Source of the DNA: a virus
DNA length: 22,242 nt
Direction: 5' to 3' (one strand)
IMG/VR virus record: IMGVR_UViG_3300030060_001379
Location: 1-22,242 of that record
The notes under the pieces: generated by a model
Database searches by the model: none
Told to the model about the DNA's origin: nothing
What the model saw: the letters and a program-made list of their open reading frames with translations, nothing else
Shown here: positions 6,919 to 14,971 of the stretch, in pieces
Numbering within the stretch: the first letter of the stretch is position 1
How the letters are laid out: the number at the start of each line of letters is the position of its first letter
Made by a program: the position numbers and the translations under genes

Positions 6919-7320
6919 ATGGCAACAAATGCAACATGGACAGTAGTGATGGATGATAAAATGATTATCAATCAAACTGTAAAAAATGAAAATGGTTATG
7001 GAACTGCTTACATTATAAACGATGATAGTTTCTGGAGCCAAAGTAAATTTGCAGATGTTTGGGCTATTCAGTATGTTGCAGATAATTTAGACCACAACGA
7101 TACTGTTGAATATAGAGACGGTAAACCTCACGCTACTTGGAATAATGCAAACTTAGGTTCTTTTTCAGATTTTATAACAAAGTGGGATGCAGCTCACTTA
7201 GCTCAACTTCAATTAAACTGGGACAATGATAATGTTACAGACGAAGATGGTAATATTACAGAGACAGCAGAGCAAAAAATAAATAGACTTGGTGCTAGAC
7301 CAACGTCATACGTTTCTTAA
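6919..7320 (+). CDS. Small conserved protein downstream of the collar gene
   Basis: A 133-residue acidic protein, rich in Asp, Asn and Trp (for example SKFADVWAIQYVADNLDHNDTVEY, residues 42 onward, in part). The start uses a ribosome site that includes the previous stop codon (TAGGAG). There is no signal peptide, membrane segment or named domain that I can recognise. Its place right after a fibre-tip gene is where fibre chaperones or assembly factors are often encoded, so that role is possible but not shown. Its last 15 nt overlap the end of the opposite-strand oxygenase gene, which marks the junction of two convergent transcription units. Confidence 0.6.
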   Translation: MATNATWTVVMDDKMIINQTVKNENGYGTAYIINDDSFWSQSKFADVWAIQYVADNLDHNDTVEYRDGKPHATWNNANLGSFSDFITKWDAAHLAQLQLNWDNDNVTDEDGNITETAEQKINRLGARPTSYVS

Positions 7321-7905
7321 ATTCATCCAAGAAGTTAATATATATTTTTCACCTGATAGAGGTGGATTGCCTCTATGAACATATGGAAAAGCTGCGGGCC
7401 ATATTACTATTCTACCCATTTTAGGTTTAACTCTTTTTGAAAAGTGCAAAAACTCTGTTTCCCCACCTTCTTCGACATCGTTTAAATATATTGAATAAGC
7501 AAACGCTCTAGGCTCTCCTTTTGCACCACGCATATGCTCTATATGCCACTGATGATAACCTTCTTTTGGTAAAGTCTTTTGTATTTTTAATTGAGTGTAA
7601 TGAAACTCCCCGTGATCATACGCAGCGTCTCCACCTGTTTCTTGCAAATAATGATTAAAAGCTAGATTATAATTAACCATTAATGATTTTAGATCGTCCC
7701 ACCAAATATTTAAATTTGCAGGAGCTGCAAAGAATTGTGTGTCTTTCTTTTGAAGATTATTAGAGTTTTCAAATTGTCTTCTATTTAAAGTTCTTCTAAA
7801 CTTGTTTTCTTGTTCAAATAATTTTATAGCTTTATTACATTCTTGTTCAGTTATGTAATTATCAAATATCCCTATAAAATTTTCTATTGTAACTTTGTGG
7901 TTCAT
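7306..7905 (-). CDS. 2-oxoglutarate/Fe(II)-dependent oxygenase, prolyl-hydroxylase type
   Basis: A 199-residue enzyme expected to use Fe(II), O2 and 2-oxoglutarate to hydroxylate a substrate. The double-stranded beta-helix signature is present: H121-x-E123 in YHQWHIEH (first two iron ligands, Glu instead of the commoner Asp), the conserved EEGGETEF (145-152), distal His177 in FPYVHRGNPPLSG, and Lys187 in GEKYILTSW for the 2-oxoglutarate carboxylate. The length is normal for a single-domain phage member. Its ATG overlaps the carbamoyltransferase stop by ATGA, so the two are translationally coupled. It lies on the strand opposite to all virion genes. The substrate is unknown; protein, amino acid, sugar or nucleobase are all possible. 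Confidence 0.87.
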   Translation of the reverse strand: MNHKVTIENFIGIFDNYITEQECNKAIKLFEQENKFRRTLNRRQFENSNNLQKKDTQFFAAPANLNIWWDDLKSLMVNYNLAFNHYLQETGGDAAYDHGEFHYTQLKIQKTLPKEGYHQWHIEHMRGAKGEPRAFAYSIYLNDVEEGGETEFLHFSKRVKPKMGRIVIWPAAFPYVHRGNPPLSGEKYILTSWMNLRNV

Positions 7906-9323
7906 TCTTTTATTATTAATTGATTAATATCAGGCAACCATGCATATTTTAAAGGTGACATATCTAACATGTATTTTAGATCTAGAATATTTTCAACTAA
8001 AACCTGACCTGGAAAATTTAAACTTGTATTTAATAACATATCCTCACTAGCTTTTAATAGTTCATAAAAGGCAGAATTTTGTTGTTTATTTACAGTTTGA
8101 ACTCTACTGCTACCATCATAAGCAGACACATTTTTTAAATATTGTTTAGTTTTAAAAGCATACAACATATAAGGGGATGTAATGTCTTGCATGTCAAAAT
8201 AGTCTTCAGCTTTTTCTTCAACAACACTAGGAGAAAAAGGTCTATACCATTCTCTTTTTTTTATAACATTTATCTTTGCCATGGCTTCTTTGTGATGGCA
8301 ATTCATTAGTAAAGACCTATTACCAAGTCCTCTTTGACCTTGTTCAGATCTTCCTTGAAACAAAGCAACAGGTTCATCTTTTAATATTTTAGCGACATCT
8401 TCTACTTCCGTTGGAACAATTTTATATTTATTAAATATACTTAAATAATCATAATTTGGCTCTGGCCCTAAATACATAGAGTTTACTTTATGTAAATCAC
8501 CTTTTAAAAAATAATTAAGTAAACCTAAAGATATACCTGAATCAATACATATTGGATCTATTTTAAAATTTTTATAATTTATAAAATTACTATTAGCTAA
8601 AATATTTTGAGCTACACCACCAGAATAGTTTACATTTTCTTTTGGCATTATATCTAACAAATCTTTTTCTGTCTTTTTTTGTAGAGAATATAGAAAATTT
8701 TGACACTCAATATTATTCATATCTTCATTTAAATTACTAGCAGATTCTATTATTTTACTTCCATATTGAGATAGAGCCATAGTTTTTCCGCAATAATGAA
8801 ATCCATATTTATATGTAGTATTAAATAATTCACTTGTTATATTTCCATATCTTAATCCAATTCTTTTTTGATAACGTGACATCAAATTAAAATTTTTATC
8901 GTAAATAGATTCTCTTTCACACTCTCCTGTTTCATCTATAATACCACCACCATCTGCAATGAAATAATTTTGATTGTCACCAAGTGTAACTTTACTACAG
9001 TAAGCATGTAGTAAATGATGTTTTCTATTTTTCTTGTTTGAAAAGTTTATGATTGTAGTGTTTTTATTAATAAGTTTGAAATTACTAAATATAGTTTTGT
9101 AATAAATTTCGTCTACGCTATTATCTTCCTGTTCAAGGTCTATTAAAAGGACAACATCGAATACGATGTTTAAAGATTGTAAGTAAATTAATAATGAACC
9201 AGATATTTCACAACTATGTTTAATTCTATTAAATCTGTCTAATTGACAATGAATTAATAAATTATTATCTTTGGCTATCGAAAATGCACCATCGTGGCCA
9301 AAATAAATGGAAAGTATGTACAT
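7902..9323 (-). CDS. NodU/TobZ-family O-carbamoyltransferase
   Basis: A 473-residue enzyme of the family that moves a carbamoyl group from carbamoyl phosphate, via an adenylated intermediate, to a hydroxyl on a sugar or other small molecule. Visible family marks are YFGHDGA (7-13), the metal-binding HHLLHA (102-107), ADGGG (123-127) and YSGGVAQN (233-240). The C-terminal YrdC-like domain has GRSEQGQRGLGNRS (324-337), RPFSP (361-365) and NTSLN (432-436). It is shorter than the roughly 550-600 residues usual for NodU proteins, mainly in the first half. It is very AT-rich; two sampled 60-nt lines (8401, 8641) each have 13 G or C. No Shine-Dalgarno precedes the ATG. The coupled oxygenase suggests a two-step modification; the acceptor is unknown. 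Confidence 0.9.
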   Translation of the reverse strand: MYILSIYFGHDGAFSIAKDNNLLIHCQLDRFNRIKHSCEISGSLLIYLQSLNIVFDVVLLIDLEQEDNSVDEIYYKTIFSNFKLINKNTTIINFSNKKNRKHHLLHAYCSKVTLGDNQNYFIADGGGIIDETGECERESIYDKNFNLMSRYQKRIGLRYGNITSELFNTTYKYGFHYCGKTMALSQYGSKIIESASNLNEDMNNIECQNFLYSLQKKTEKDLLDIMPKENVNYSGGVAQNILANSNFINYKNFKIDPICIDSGISLGLLNYFLKGDLHKVNSMYLGPEPNYDYLSIFNKYKIVPTEVEDVAKILKDEPVALFQGRSEQGQRGLGNRSLLMNCHHKEAMAKINVIKKREWYRPFSPSVVEEKAEDYFDMQDITSPYMLYAFKTKQYLKNVSAYDGSSRVQTVNKQQNSAFYELLKASEDMLLNTSLNFPGQVLVENILDLKYMLDMSPLKYAWLPDINQLIIKE

Positions 9324-9336
9324 TTAAGTATATAAT
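9308..9336 (+). promoter_or_regulatory. Promoter for the nozzle gene
   Basis: A perfect -10 hexamer TATAAT (9331-9336) lies 17 nt downstream of TGGAAA (9308-9313, four of six matches to TTGACA). The start would be near 9343, giving a leader of about 37 nt with AAGGA (9371-9375) before the ATG at 9380. A promoter is needed here because the opposite-strand cassette interrupts the rightward operon. An 8-bp palindrome, TTACGTAA (9354-9361), lies just downstream and could be an operator. Confidence 0.55.
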
Positions 9337-9337
9337 A
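9327..9337 (-). promoter_or_regulatory. Possible leaderless promoter of the carbamoyltransferase
   Basis: On the minus strand TATTAT (9337-9332) and TATACT (9332-9327) are both -10-like. The first would start transcription within a few bases of the ATG at 9323. Because no Shine-Dalgarno lies upstream of that ATG, a leaderless or near-leaderless mRNA would fit. No convincing -35 is present, so this is tentative. Confidence 0.35.
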
Positions 9338-9379
9338 TTGTGTCTTTCATAATTTACGTAAGTAATATATAAGGATATT

Positions 9380-11344
9380 ATGCTACAAAAATTAAATTTC
9401 AAGTCAGGATTTAACAAGCAAGATACCGAATCTGGAGCCGAAGGACAATGGGTAGATGGTGATTTTGTCAGATTTAGATATGGATTACCTGAAAAAATAG
9501 GTGGTTGGAATCAATTAACGACTAATTCTTTAACATTACCCGGAGCAGCCAGACAACAAGTTGCTTTTACCAGTTTTGCTGGGGAAAAATATGCAGCCAT
9601 CGGAACTTCACAAGGTTTATTTTTATACTATGGAGATGATTTTTTTGACATCAGCCCACTAGATACTGCTATAACAGGAGCTACCTTAACCACAACAAAT
9701 GGATCCAATATTATAACTGTAAACAAAGGTTCTCATGGATTATTAGTAGGTAGATATGTAACTTTATCATCAGTAACTGTAACAGGTGCATCTGCTTTTA
9801 CAGCCTCTGACTTAGAAAAAACTTATGAAATATTGACAGTTCCCGATGTAGATAAATTTACAATTCAAGCTGCATCAAATGAAACAGGATCAGGTATGTC
9901 AGCAGCTGGAGCAGCTACAATTAATCCATATGTAATAGTAGGACCTACAATTCAAACAGGTGGTTATGGATGGAGCACATCAACTTGGGGTGCATCTACA
10001 TGGAACACGCCAAGGGCAACAACTAGTGTTGTTCTAGATCCAGGGAACTGGAGTTTAGATAACTTTGGCCAGGTTTTAGTTGCAACAATATTTAATGGAG
10101 AAACTTTTACATGGAATGCAGGTGCTACAAATGCAAGAACGATTAGAGCTTCCAAAACTACAACCAACTTTCAAACTACAAATAACCCTACCACCACTAG
10201 AATATCGGTGGTTTCCGATAGAGACAGACATTTATTTCACATGGGAACAGAAACTACGATAGGAACCCCTGCCACTCAGGACCCGATGTTTGTGAGATTT
10301 TCTAACCAAGAAGATTTAAATACCTATACACCCACTGCAACTAATACTGCAGGTACATTTAGATTAGATACAGGTAATGAAATAAGAGCGGCCATACAAG
10401 GTAAAGATTATATTTTTGTTTTAACAGATCTTGCAGCTTATGTAATACAGTTTGTTGGACCACCTTTTACTTTTTCAGTAAGACAAGTGGGCACCAACTG
10501 TGGATGCATTGCACAAAATGCTGTATCATATGCAAATGGAGCAATATGGTGGATGGGTGCAGAGGGTGGATTTTTTGTATTCGACGGAACCGTTAAATCT
10601 TTACCATCACTTGTAGAAGATTTTGTGTTTACAACGGATGGTGATAATTTAGGATTAAACTTTGATGCAAGAGATGTAATATTTTCATCACCAAATAATC
10701 TATACACAGAAATAAATTGGTTCTATCCAAAAGCCGGATCGGAACAAATAGATAGATGTGTCACTTACAATTATTCAGAAAGAGTTTGGACAACTTCTTC
10801 ATTAGATAGAACAAGTTATCAAGACCAAGGTGTATTTAACAAGCCTTACGCAACAGATTATAATAATACTGCAACACCTGTATTTCCAGAAATATTAGGT
10901 ATAACTAATAAATATGGAGCTTCTATTTACTATGTTCAAGAAGTTGGAACTGATCAAGTTAATAGCACTGGCACAACAGCCATACCAGCATTTATAAGAT
11001 CTGGAGATTATGATATTACATCTAGACGTAGTGCCTTGGGTCAGATGACCGGGGTAGCAGATTTTAGAGGAGATGGAGAGTTTTTTATGTCTGTAAAGAG
11101 ATTTATACCTGATTTTAAATACCAAACAGGAGATGCCAAAATAACTCTATTTGTTAGTTCTTTTCCAGATGATGTCGCTGTTAGTTCTCCATTAGGACCC
11201 TTTACAGTTACAACAACAACTGATAAGGTTGACACTCGGGCAAGAGGTAGATTAGTGTCCCTTAAAATAGAAAACGATTCTACAGGTGAAACCTGGAGAT
11301 ATGGAACGTTGAGACTAGACGCTCAACCGGATGGTAGAAGATAA
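9380..11344 (+). CDS. Tail nozzle / gp10-like DNA-stabilisation protein
   Basis: A 654-residue tail-tube protein that would close the connector and retain packaged DNA, as P22 gp10-type hub or nozzle proteins do. The N-terminus (LNFKSGFNKQDTESGAEGQW, then DGDFVRFRYGLPEKIGGW) is the family signature. Residues about 95-190 contain an inserted beta module (GSNIITVNKGSHGLLVGRYV, then EKTYEILTVPD). A Trp motif (GYGWSTSTWGASTWN) follows at 195-209. The C-terminal two-thirds carry repeated beta-propeller-like strands (for example GAIWWMGAEGGFFVFDG, KSLPSLVEDFVF). The gene begins just right of the enzyme cassette with its own candidate promoter and ends in TAATG, overlapping the next start. The gp10-like call is by motif recognition. 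Confidence 0.75.
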   Translation: MLQKLNFKSGFNKQDTESGAEGQWVDGDFVRFRYGLPEKIGGWNQLTTNSLTLPGAARQQVAFTSFAGEKYAAIGTSQGLFLYYGDDFFDISPLDTAITGATLTTTNGSNIITVNKGSHGLLVGRYVTLSSVTVTGASAFTASDLEKTYEILTVPDVDKFTIQAASNETGSGMSAAGAATINPYVIVGPTIQTGGYGWSTSTWGASTWNTPRATTSVVLDPGNWSLDNFGQVLVATIFNGETFTWNAGATNARTIRASKTTTNFQTTNNPTTTRISVVSDRDRHLFHMGTETTIGTPATQDPMFVRFSNQEDLNTYTPTATNTAGTFRLDTGNEIRAAIQGKDYIFVLTDLAAYVIQFVGPPFTFSVRQVGTNCGCIAQNAVSYANGAIWWMGAEGGFFVFDGTVKSLPSLVEDFVFTTDGDNLGLNFDARDVIFSSPNNLYTEINWFYPKAGSEQIDRCVTYNYSERVWTTSSLDRTSYQDQGVFNKPYATDYNNTATPVFPEILGITNKYGASIYYVQEVGTDQVNSTGTTAIPAFIRSGDYDITSRRSALGQMTGVADFRGDGEFFMSVKRFIPDFKYQTGDAKITLFVSSFPDDVAVSSPLGPFTVTTTTDKVDTRARGRLVSLKIENDSTGETWRYGTLRLDAQPDGRR

Positions 11345-13003: not shown

Positions 13004-13184
13004 TGTAATTAATATAGAGTGCACTACGGTAACTACGTGGCGTAATACTAAAACCGGTGAAATTTATAAAGAAAAGAAAGAAGGGCCTGACATAGCTCAA
13101 GACGTAACTGTGCAAGTGTCACCGAAAGGATTAGATGTTCTTCAGAAAGTAATGCAAAGTCAAAATGATAAACCTAAACCCTAA
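12990..13184 (+). CDS. Very small conserved-type phage protein
   Basis: A 64-residue protein with a beta-rich first half (VINIECTTVTTWRNTKTGEI) and a Lys-rich tail, function unknown. It overlaps the upstream gene by 14 nt and the glycosyltransferase gene by 20 nt, which is typical of tightly packed phage operons. The purine-rich ATAGAGAGA precedes the ATG at 12990. The TGEIYKEKKEG segment is a plausible hairpin with charged turn. The evidence for reality is the tiling of both junctions and normal composition. Confidence 0.55.
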   Translation: MKTDNVINIECTTVTTWRNTKTGEIYKEKKEGPDIAQDVTVQVSPKGLDVLQKVMQSQNDKPKP

Positions 13185-14142
13185 AGGTGGGACAGAGTTA
13201 CAACACGATTATCTAACAGATCATGTAGATAAATCTATTTTAGACCAAGTACAAATTACAACATCTGTGCCTGAAAAAATACCCTTACATCCTACAAAGA
13301 TGAATATTCTATGGCAAAAAAATTCTTACGATCAACCGAATCTAGCACCCTGGTTTAAAGATAAAAACAATCATAAAAAATATGATTGGTATGTTTTTAA
13401 CTCACACTGGACTTATGAAAAATTTAGATATTATTTTGATGTTCCTACAGAAAGATCTGTAGTTATTAAAAATGGTATAGACAGAATACAAAAATCAGCC
13501 CCTTATAAAAAAGATGAGCCAATAAAGATAATACACCAAAACACACCTTGGAGAGGGTTATCTGTATTATTAGGTGCTATGCAACTTGTAAAAAATCCTT
13601 TAATAACTTTAGATGTTTATTCTTCTACAGAGGTATATGGTAAAAGTTTTTATGATCAAAATGATAAACATTATAAAGCTTTATACGAACAAGCAGATGG
13701 TTTACCAAACGTAAATTATATTGGTTACAAAAGAAACCAATATATTAAAGATCATTTACAAAATTATCAAATGTATGCCTATCCTAGTATCTTTGAAGAA
13801 ACCTTTTGTATATCTTTGTTAGAGTGTATGGCAGCTGGTTTATATTGTATAACTACAGATCTTGGAGCTTTATATGAAACAGGTGCAGAGTTTCCAATGT
13901 ATGTACCATACGATAAAGATTTTAGATCATTAGCAGAGAAGTTTGCATTTGGTATAGAAGCTGCAGCTAAAACAATACATGAAACACAAATACACAATCA
14001 TCTAGAAGTACAATCACATTATGCGAATGCATATTATAACTGGAATAAAATAGGATACCAGTGGGAAACATTTTTGAAAGGAGCACTCGATGCAAGATCC
14101 CAATCAGCCGATATGGTTTACGAGCCACGAAAAGAAAGGTAA
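13165..14142 (+). CDS. GT-B glycosyltransferase (GT4-like)
   Basis: A 325-residue glycosyltransferase likely to transfer a sugar from a nucleotide-sugar donor. Visible marks are the glycine loop NPKGGTELQ at residues 5-13, the WYVFNSHWT segment (75-83), and VIKNGID (100-106). The C-terminal half opens with IIHQNTPWRGLSVLLGAM and contains YAYPSIFEETFCISLLE (204-220), with the donor-binding E-x7-E pair E212/E220, followed by CMAAGLYCITTD. The only possible start is the ATG at 13165, because a stop lies at 13150 in frame. The gene is AT-rich and overlaps the next glycosyltransferase by 53 nt, so the two are probably made together. The acceptor is unknown. Confidence 0.87.
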   Translation: MINLNPKGGTELQHDYLTDHVDKSILDQVQITTSVPEKIPLHPTKMNILWQKNSYDQPNLAPWFKDKNNHKKYDWYVFNSHWTYEKFRYYFDVPTERSVVIKNGIDRIQKSAPYKKDEPIKIIHQNTPWRGLSVLLGAMQLVKNPLITLDVYSSTEVYGKSFYDQNDKHYKALYEQADGLPNVNYIGYKRNQYIKDHLQNYQMYAYPSIFEETFCISLLECMAAGLYCITTDLGALYETGAEFPMYVPYDKDFRSLAEKFAFGIEAAAKTIHETQIHNHLEVQSHYANAYYNWNKIGYQWETFLKGALDARSQSADMVYEPRKER

Positions 14143-14971
14143 CGTAAGAGAAGTACATCTTGGAACGTCACCACACCGTATTATGGTGTGTACACCTGTG
14201 CACAGTGATGTATCTATGCATTATTGCCAAGCTGTCTTAAAGTTTCAACAAGAGTGTCTTAATCGTAACATGTTAGTTAGTTTTACTTTAATGAAGTCTT
14301 CTTTAGTAACACAGGGTAGAAACTTATGTGTTGCTGAAATGTTAAATCATACAGATAAATATACTCATTTATTATTTATAGATGCAGATATTGATTTTGA
14401 ATTTAGTACAATAGAGAAAATGTTAAATAGTGATAAAGATATAATATCTTGTCCTTACCCTATGAAAACTTTTGATTGGGATAAAACATGGAGAAGATTA
14501 ACTACAAAACAAGACGCTATAACAAAAGCAAGCGATTTACCGAAGTCGGGTCTTACTTTTCCTCTCAAATTAACTGATCCAACTAACATACAGGCTTCCG
14601 GAGGAGTTGTTGAGGTTACTCATGCTCCTACCGGTTGTATGTTAATTAAAAGATCTGTATTAGAGAAGATGATAAAAGAATATCCACAACTAGAAATATA
14701 CCAACCCACTAATATAAATGGTAAAGAGGTTAGTAAACAAAACTTTTATAACCTATTTGACACGATTCATGAACCAAGCACCAAGCGTTGTTTCGGTGAA
14801 GATTTTGGTTTTTGTCAAAGATGGACCGATATAGGTGGTAAAGTTCATGTATATATCATGGATTATATTACTCATGTAGGTGAGTTTCAGTATTGTGGTC
14901 GTTTCTTTGATGATTTAAAACAAGGTACAAGCCCTCGTAAACCTATTGACGATAAAGAAAAAATCAAATAA
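14090..14971 (+). CDS. GT-A glycosyltransferase
   Basis: A 293-residue enzyme with a GT-A type (GT2-like) fold. The domain starts near residue 30 with IMVCTPVHSDVSMHYCQAVL, then QGRNLCVAEML (75-85) and the metal and donor motif LLFIDADIDF, with Asp98-x-Asp100. Residues 236-245 (GEDFGFCQRW) supply the likely catalytic Glu/Asp pair, and His262 in ITHVG is in the position of the metal-binding His of related enzymes. GAAAGGAG lies upstream of the ATG at 14090, so the first 29 residues, encoded within the preceding glycosyltransferase gene, are probably real. Acting with the GT-B enzyme, it could build a short glycan on a virion protein, host envelope or DNA. Confidence 0.82.
   Translation: MQDPNQPIWFTSHEKKGNVREVHLGTSPHRIMVCTPVHSDVSMHYCQAVLKFQQECLNRNMLVSFTLMKSSLVTQGRNLCVAEMLNHTDKYTHLLFIDADIDFEFSTIEKMLNSDKDIISCPYPMKTFDWDKTWRRLTTKQDAITKASDLPKSGLTFPLKLTDPTNIQASGGVVEVTHAPTGCMLIKRSVLEKMIKEYPQLEIYQPTNINGKEVSKQNFYNLFDTIHEPSTKRCFGEDFGFCQRWTDIGGKVHVYIMDYITHVGEFQYCGRFFDDLKQGTSPRKPIDDKEKIK

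Follow-up and report, generated by a model that had tools for sequence, protein, structure and literature searches.

The two minus-strand enzyme genes found within the virion operon of this phage, encoding an O-carbamoyltransferase (CT) and a 2-oxoglutarate (2OG)-Fe(II) oxygenase (OX), probably constitute one filling of a variable, opposite-strand oxygenase island, to which each enzyme belongs as a separate member of a toolkit. The hosts of pelagiphages, the SAR11 bacteria, are among the most abundant in the ocean, and no function is known for most pelagiphage genes. One fixed slot occupied by diverged 2OG oxygenases would turn scattered 'auxiliary metabolic gene' annotations into a single testable system, and the slot described here is inverted, with its own strand, an occasional carbamoyltransferase and a probable promoter for restarting the virion operon. 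The enzyme families, their conserved active sites, the fixed slot, its variable content and the conserved promoter-like element were all read from sequence.

Gene neighbourhood

The window (the whole stretch of DNA analysed, 22.2 kb or 22,242 nucleotides, from a virus record) carries a virion structural gene (STAB, phrog_3287; positions 9380–11344, plus strand) that is 81% identical to HTVC027P gp75, with HTVC023P the runner-up at 53%. The order of the genes in the window is also that of HTVC027P, and these two features together identify the window, by sequence, as a genome fragment from an HTVC027P-like pelagiphage.

The virion gene forms one border of the island and is separated from it by a divergent gap of 56 nt (9324–9379). 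The other border, kept in the relatives, is a gene encoding a 133-aa protein of no known family (6919–7320, plus strand), which adjoins a tail-collar gene, is convergent with the OX gene and overlaps it by 15 nt. An earlier note on this DNA had described two complete minus-strand enzyme genes flanked on both sides by plus-strand genes, and this is indeed the case: OX (7306–7905, minus strand, 199 aa) and CT (7902–9323, minus strand, 473 aa) are both intact. They share an ATGA at 7902–7905, on the minus strand, in which the CT stop codon overlaps the OX start codon; translation of the two is likely to be coupled through this overlap. Two or three tandem tail-collar genes, not one, lie beside the island in L034, L054, L060–L063, L066, L072, L073, L078 and L030. 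Elsewhere in the virion operon of the window, at 13165–14971, the gene for a GT4-like glycosyltransferase overlaps that for a phrog_1574 protein; HTVC027P and HTVC023P have retained both genes.

The two enzymes

Class III O-carbamoyltransferases use carbamoyl phosphate and ATP to make carbamoyl-adenylate, the carbamoyl group of which is then moved to a hydroxyl. CT is a compact form of these enzymes. It matches PF16861 (6.6e-38, 130.4 bits, for a cut-off of 27) and, barely over the cut-off, PF02543 (24.6 versus 24 bits) in Pfam, belongs to phrog_1601 in PHROGs and has sequence matches to VtdB, NovN, GdmN and TobZ. It has the Kae1-like N-terminal and YrdC-like C-terminal domains of the class, together with the general-base histidine and four iron ligands (His, His, Asp, Asp). 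Residues H10, H102, H106, D124 and D261 are invariant in an alignment of nine homologues with identities down to 30%; by motif and spacing, H10 has been assigned as the counterpart of the GdmN general base, H27, and the other four as the counterparts of the GdmN iron ligands H133, H137, D156 and D333 (PMC9633730). Pfam, PHROGs and the invariant active-site residues agree with the recognition of NodU/TobZ motifs in the earlier note, and the structure prediction proposed there as a check, run for CT, yielded a model (pTM 0.84) with TobZ as the top PDB match (TMq about 0.8). Cellular relatives of CT are distant, often partial matches in mixed gene contexts, which do not fix the substrate. In one relative (L033:2912-4346), the carbamoyltransferase is present as two overlapping ORFs, one Kae1-like and the other YrdC-like, corresponding to a natural split enzyme or a frameshift; the same two clusters are found in L070, with the C-terminal part at L070:3214-3774.

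The 2OG-Fe(II) oxygenases hydroxylate their substrates using O2, Fe(II) and 2-oxoglutarate. OX matches PF13640 in Pfam (8.9e-13, 49.5 bits, for a cut-off of 27), belongs to phrog_61 and matches bacterial prolyl 4-hydroxylases (1.5e-8), although this likeness would not fix its substrate. The HxD/E...H iron triad and the basic residue for 2-oxoglutarate expected of P4H-like PF13640 proteins are both present. In an alignment of the OX family, comprising 199 island proteins, H121 and an E or D at position 123 are found in all 199, H177 in 197/199 and a K or R at position 187 in 198/199. The iron and 2OG ligands of OX, whose presence had been claimed beforehand, are likely to be H121, E123, H177 and K187, with an HxE rather than an HxD motif.

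A fixed slot with variable content

The region extending from the 133-aa/collar genes to the downstream virion gene was catalogued in IMG/VR for 80 relatives of OX and the best 80 relatives of the downstream virion gene. Slots were anchored on the virion gene, with the 133-aa or collar genes as their other border; the count covered genes encoding at least 120 aa, and families entered the strict 2OG list on Pfam, profile-comparison or fold evidence. An inverted island occupies this slot in nearly all the close relatives. With the slot figures taken as estimates, because they come from fragment contigs, single-linkage clusters and the 80 best matches, the 32 slots anchored on the virion gene contain 113 genes, 111 of which are on the minus strand and 90 (about 80%) in strictly defined 2OG families; an OX orthologue is present in 30 of the 32 slots, OX stands alone in five, and CT is present in one. 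A second lineage has the slot on the plus strand, and its 25 slots include no OX orthologue and two CT genes. The same slot in HTVC027P is occupied by gp72–gp74, on the minus strand, all three of which match 2OG-oxygenase families, with no CT among them. The features of an HTVC023P-type variable 2OG island (a fixed slot, several non-orthologous 2OG genes and changing content) are, thus, all found here, and what had been taken for a dedicated two-gene cassette is, instead, one filling of a variable inverted island.

Other island genes were encountered in the same catalogue. The plus-strand islands of L117 and L156 (cluster c29) contain a gene of the tryptophan-halogenase family (PF04820, 6.2e-89). 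In L015, L027 and L044 (cluster c14), DUF6817 is fused to a 2OG-Fe(II) oxygenase domain in one of the island proteins.

Pairing of the two genes

Recurrence of the ordered pair in related phages had been proposed as a test by the earlier note, and the pair does recur. The order CT–OX, with the two genes joined through an identical ATGA overlap, is found in the window and the near-identical L006, in L007 and L009, in L008 and in L010, over a range of CT identities of 65–86%; in L179 (CT 71% identical), the two genes are separated by a gap of 14 nt. This recurrence speaks for a two-step pathway in which the hydroxyl made by OX is capped with a carbamoyl group by CT on the same target, as do the purifying selection acting on both genes (dN well below dS relative to homologues) and the failure of the OX data to reject the CT branching order among the pairs (p = 0.136). 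This pathway nevertheless seems unlikely, given that OX is nearly universal without CT. The L011 contig, a close relative by its OX, which is 84% identical to that of the window, lacks a CT in the stretch from OX to the virion gene; in L016 and L180, other genes lie between CT and OX; and in the plus-strand lineages CT adjoins other families. Moreover, because 2OG genes account for about 80% of island genes, the adjacency of CT to one of them would be expected by chance.

The history of the two genes was also followed in trees. The OX genes accompanied by CT do not form one clade (AU p = 0.0006), and the presence of CT on the OX tree amounts to five or six changes. For the adjacent pairs, the CT data reject the OX topology (p = 7e-5) and the OX data accept the CT topology, so no conflict between the two trees is claimed. 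The CT homologues near the same virion gene vary in partner, order and strand, and in L188, CT is located beyond the virion gene, 231 nt ahead of a glycosyltransferase gene. Since most slots have OX without CT, and CT can have other neighbours (it has no adjacent OX in L016, L180 and L188), OX does not need CT. These sequences are best read as those of an island centred on oxygenases, in which CT is an exchangeable partner. They do not prove an obligate 'hydroxylate, then carbamoylate' pathway, and a local pathway is possible in the ATGA-coupled sub-lineage, where the persistence of the pair over 65–86% CT identity would fit it.

Base composition

The cassette had also been described as markedly AT-rich, which is true of CT, with a GC content of 26.6% versus 31.2% in the lowest stretch of equal length elsewhere in the window, but not of OX, the GC content of which (31.8%) is inside the range of the window. 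The AT excess of CT is confined to codon positions 1 and 2, and its GC3 (0.152) resembles that of virion genes. Because of this resemblance, and because OX lies within range, composition is poor evidence of recent acquisition; AT content as a sign of separate acquisition is weak, and foreign origin as an explanation for AT-richness was rejected on the GC3 value. Whatever its composition says, CT does come and go between relatives, judging from their gene content.

The 'ferrochelatase' partner family

Co-located 2OG oxygenases and 'ferrochelatases' have already been published for these phages, in a text that makes no mention of a carbamoyltransferase (PMC9599517). The 'ferrochelatase' family (cluster c1, phrog_2954; L072:5450-6007 and relatives) has an invariant HxD, H, R pattern, and the best PDB matches to its AlphaFold model (mean pLDDT 96.9) are Fe(II)/2-oxoglutarate-dependent enzymes. 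The conserved residues, the model and its matches together indicate that this family is very probably another 2OG oxygenase, and the published ferrochelatase partnership, in cyanophages and pelagiphages, is probably a misannotation.

Ideas about iron metabolism in these phages have leaned on this annotation, which is now in question. The oxygenases might, without decorating any surface, alter the way in which the host metabolises 2-oxoglutarate, nitrogen or iron; a role involving 2OG and nitrogen signalling has been proposed for cyanophages (PMC3037559), and iron transport is upregulated alongside gp73 during infection with HTVC027P (PMC12753301). Such a metabolic role is, however, distinctly improbable: many diverged oxygenases turning over at one site beside tail-tip genes are unlike a fixed role, and the predicted fold does not support the 'ferrochelatase' side of the iron idea.

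A promoter-like element beyond the island

A promoter-like element, CTTTC-N17-TATATA (9344–9371, plus strand), lies inside the 56-nt divergent gap, is directed at the virion gene at 9380 and ends 8 nt before its start. The element is found upstream of the virion gene in 78 of 88 inverted-island slots versus 1 of 27 plus-strand slots and 0.8% of shuffled upstream sequences. Its spacer is 17 nt long in 79 of 87 cases, and the box mostly ends 7–11 nt short of the start of the gene. Some slots have additional genes, oriented like the virion gene, that separate it from the island; in these, the element sits at the shifted point of divergence (L019) or precedes both genes (L137). From its position and conservation, we infer that the element is a promoter from which transcription of the virion operon resumes beyond the island, probably as a nearly leaderless transcript. 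A generic sigma-70 scan of the region gave no excess over shuffled sequences (22 found versus a mean of 18.0), and no promoter was identified for the minus-strand island genes.

Possible targets and function

The mechanism that we propose is that a fixed slot in the virion operon of HTVC027P-like phages holds a variable accessory island on the opposite strand, the core of which would be formed by 2OG-Fe(II) oxygenases, with other group-transfer enzymes sometimes taken up. In the window, the extra enzyme would be the O-carbamoyltransferase, transferring carbamoyl to a hydroxyl, and the virion operon would be restarted past the island by the promoter-like element. During infection, CT and OX may modify an exposed molecule of the virion or the host surface, most probably a glycan or a receptor-binding part, and would do so as separate members of the toolkit rather than as an obligate two-step pathway.

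By analogy with other phages, the target is most likely to be a glycan or a surface. The relatives of CT in HTVC008M and S-SCSM2R are among sugar-nucleotide genes, that of S-CAM3 adjoins heptose genes and a tail-fibre-like gene, and that of P-RSM4 is beside 2OG genes near a fibre gene; other phage CT genes are in unrelated regions, beside DNA metabolism or photosynthesis genes, for example. No report of phage 2OG oxygenases acting on tail proteins was found in the literature. Phage DNA is an extremely improbable target. CT might carbamoylate a hydroxymethylated base in the manner of the 5hmC carbamoyltransferase: 5-carbamoyloxymethylcytosine is the product of a known phage-type carbamoyltransferase (PMC8670742), and some clades of the same phage group have DNA hypermodification genes (PMC9599517). 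The published enzyme is, however, paired with a dCMP hydroxymethylase (PMC8670742), for which there was no match among the window proteins scanned (part of the ORFs of a genome fragment), the hypermodification genes of the phage group have been described near the DNA polymerase and not in the island slot (PMC9599517), and OX is closest to prolyl hydroxylases.

The island could be a combinatorial tailoring locus: hydroxylases, joined at times by enzymes transferring carbamoyl, methyl or halogen, would be reshuffled next to the tail-tip genes, and each phage lineage would mark receptor-binding parts, or the surface of its host, with a chemical pattern of its own that alters host recognition or blocks rival phages; this suggestion is speculative, and we consider it rather doubtful.

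Comparison with known systems

CT shares both domains, the active-site residues and the fold of TobZ, NodU and GdmN, but is shorter than TobZ (473 aa versus chains of 566–571 aa), with about 20% identity in the fold match. The 5hmC carbamoyltransferase (PMC8670742) is another phage member of the CT superfamily; it differs in having DNA as its target and a dCMP hydroxymethylase as its partner, whereas the partner in the window is a prolyl-hydroxylase-like oxygenase. Similar kinds of enzyme are grouped in the cluster of the cyanophage P-RSM4 (CT, 2OG oxygenase, 'ferrochelatase' and PhyH-domain genes), in which CT is also on the opposite strand to its neighbours. P-RSM4 is, however, a T4-like myovirus of a cyanobacterium, its CT has an identity of about 32% in the C-terminal two thirds, and the order and strand of the genes are different.

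The HTVC023P-type clusters (PMC9599517) are from the same phage group and have several non-orthologous 2OG oxygenases and the same 'ferrochelatase' family as a partner, but no carbamoyltransferase appears in the text describing them, and the partner family is, by fold, a 2OG oxygenase here. CT has not previously been mentioned as a partner enzyme in this slot. The closest counterpart, gp72–gp74 of HTVC027P (MN698241), has the same slot, strand and flanking genes, and gp73 is the orthologue of OX (67% identity); it consists of three 2OG oxygenases and no carbamoyltransferase, whereas the window has CT and OX. The restart element and the layout of the fixed inverted slot are newly described here.
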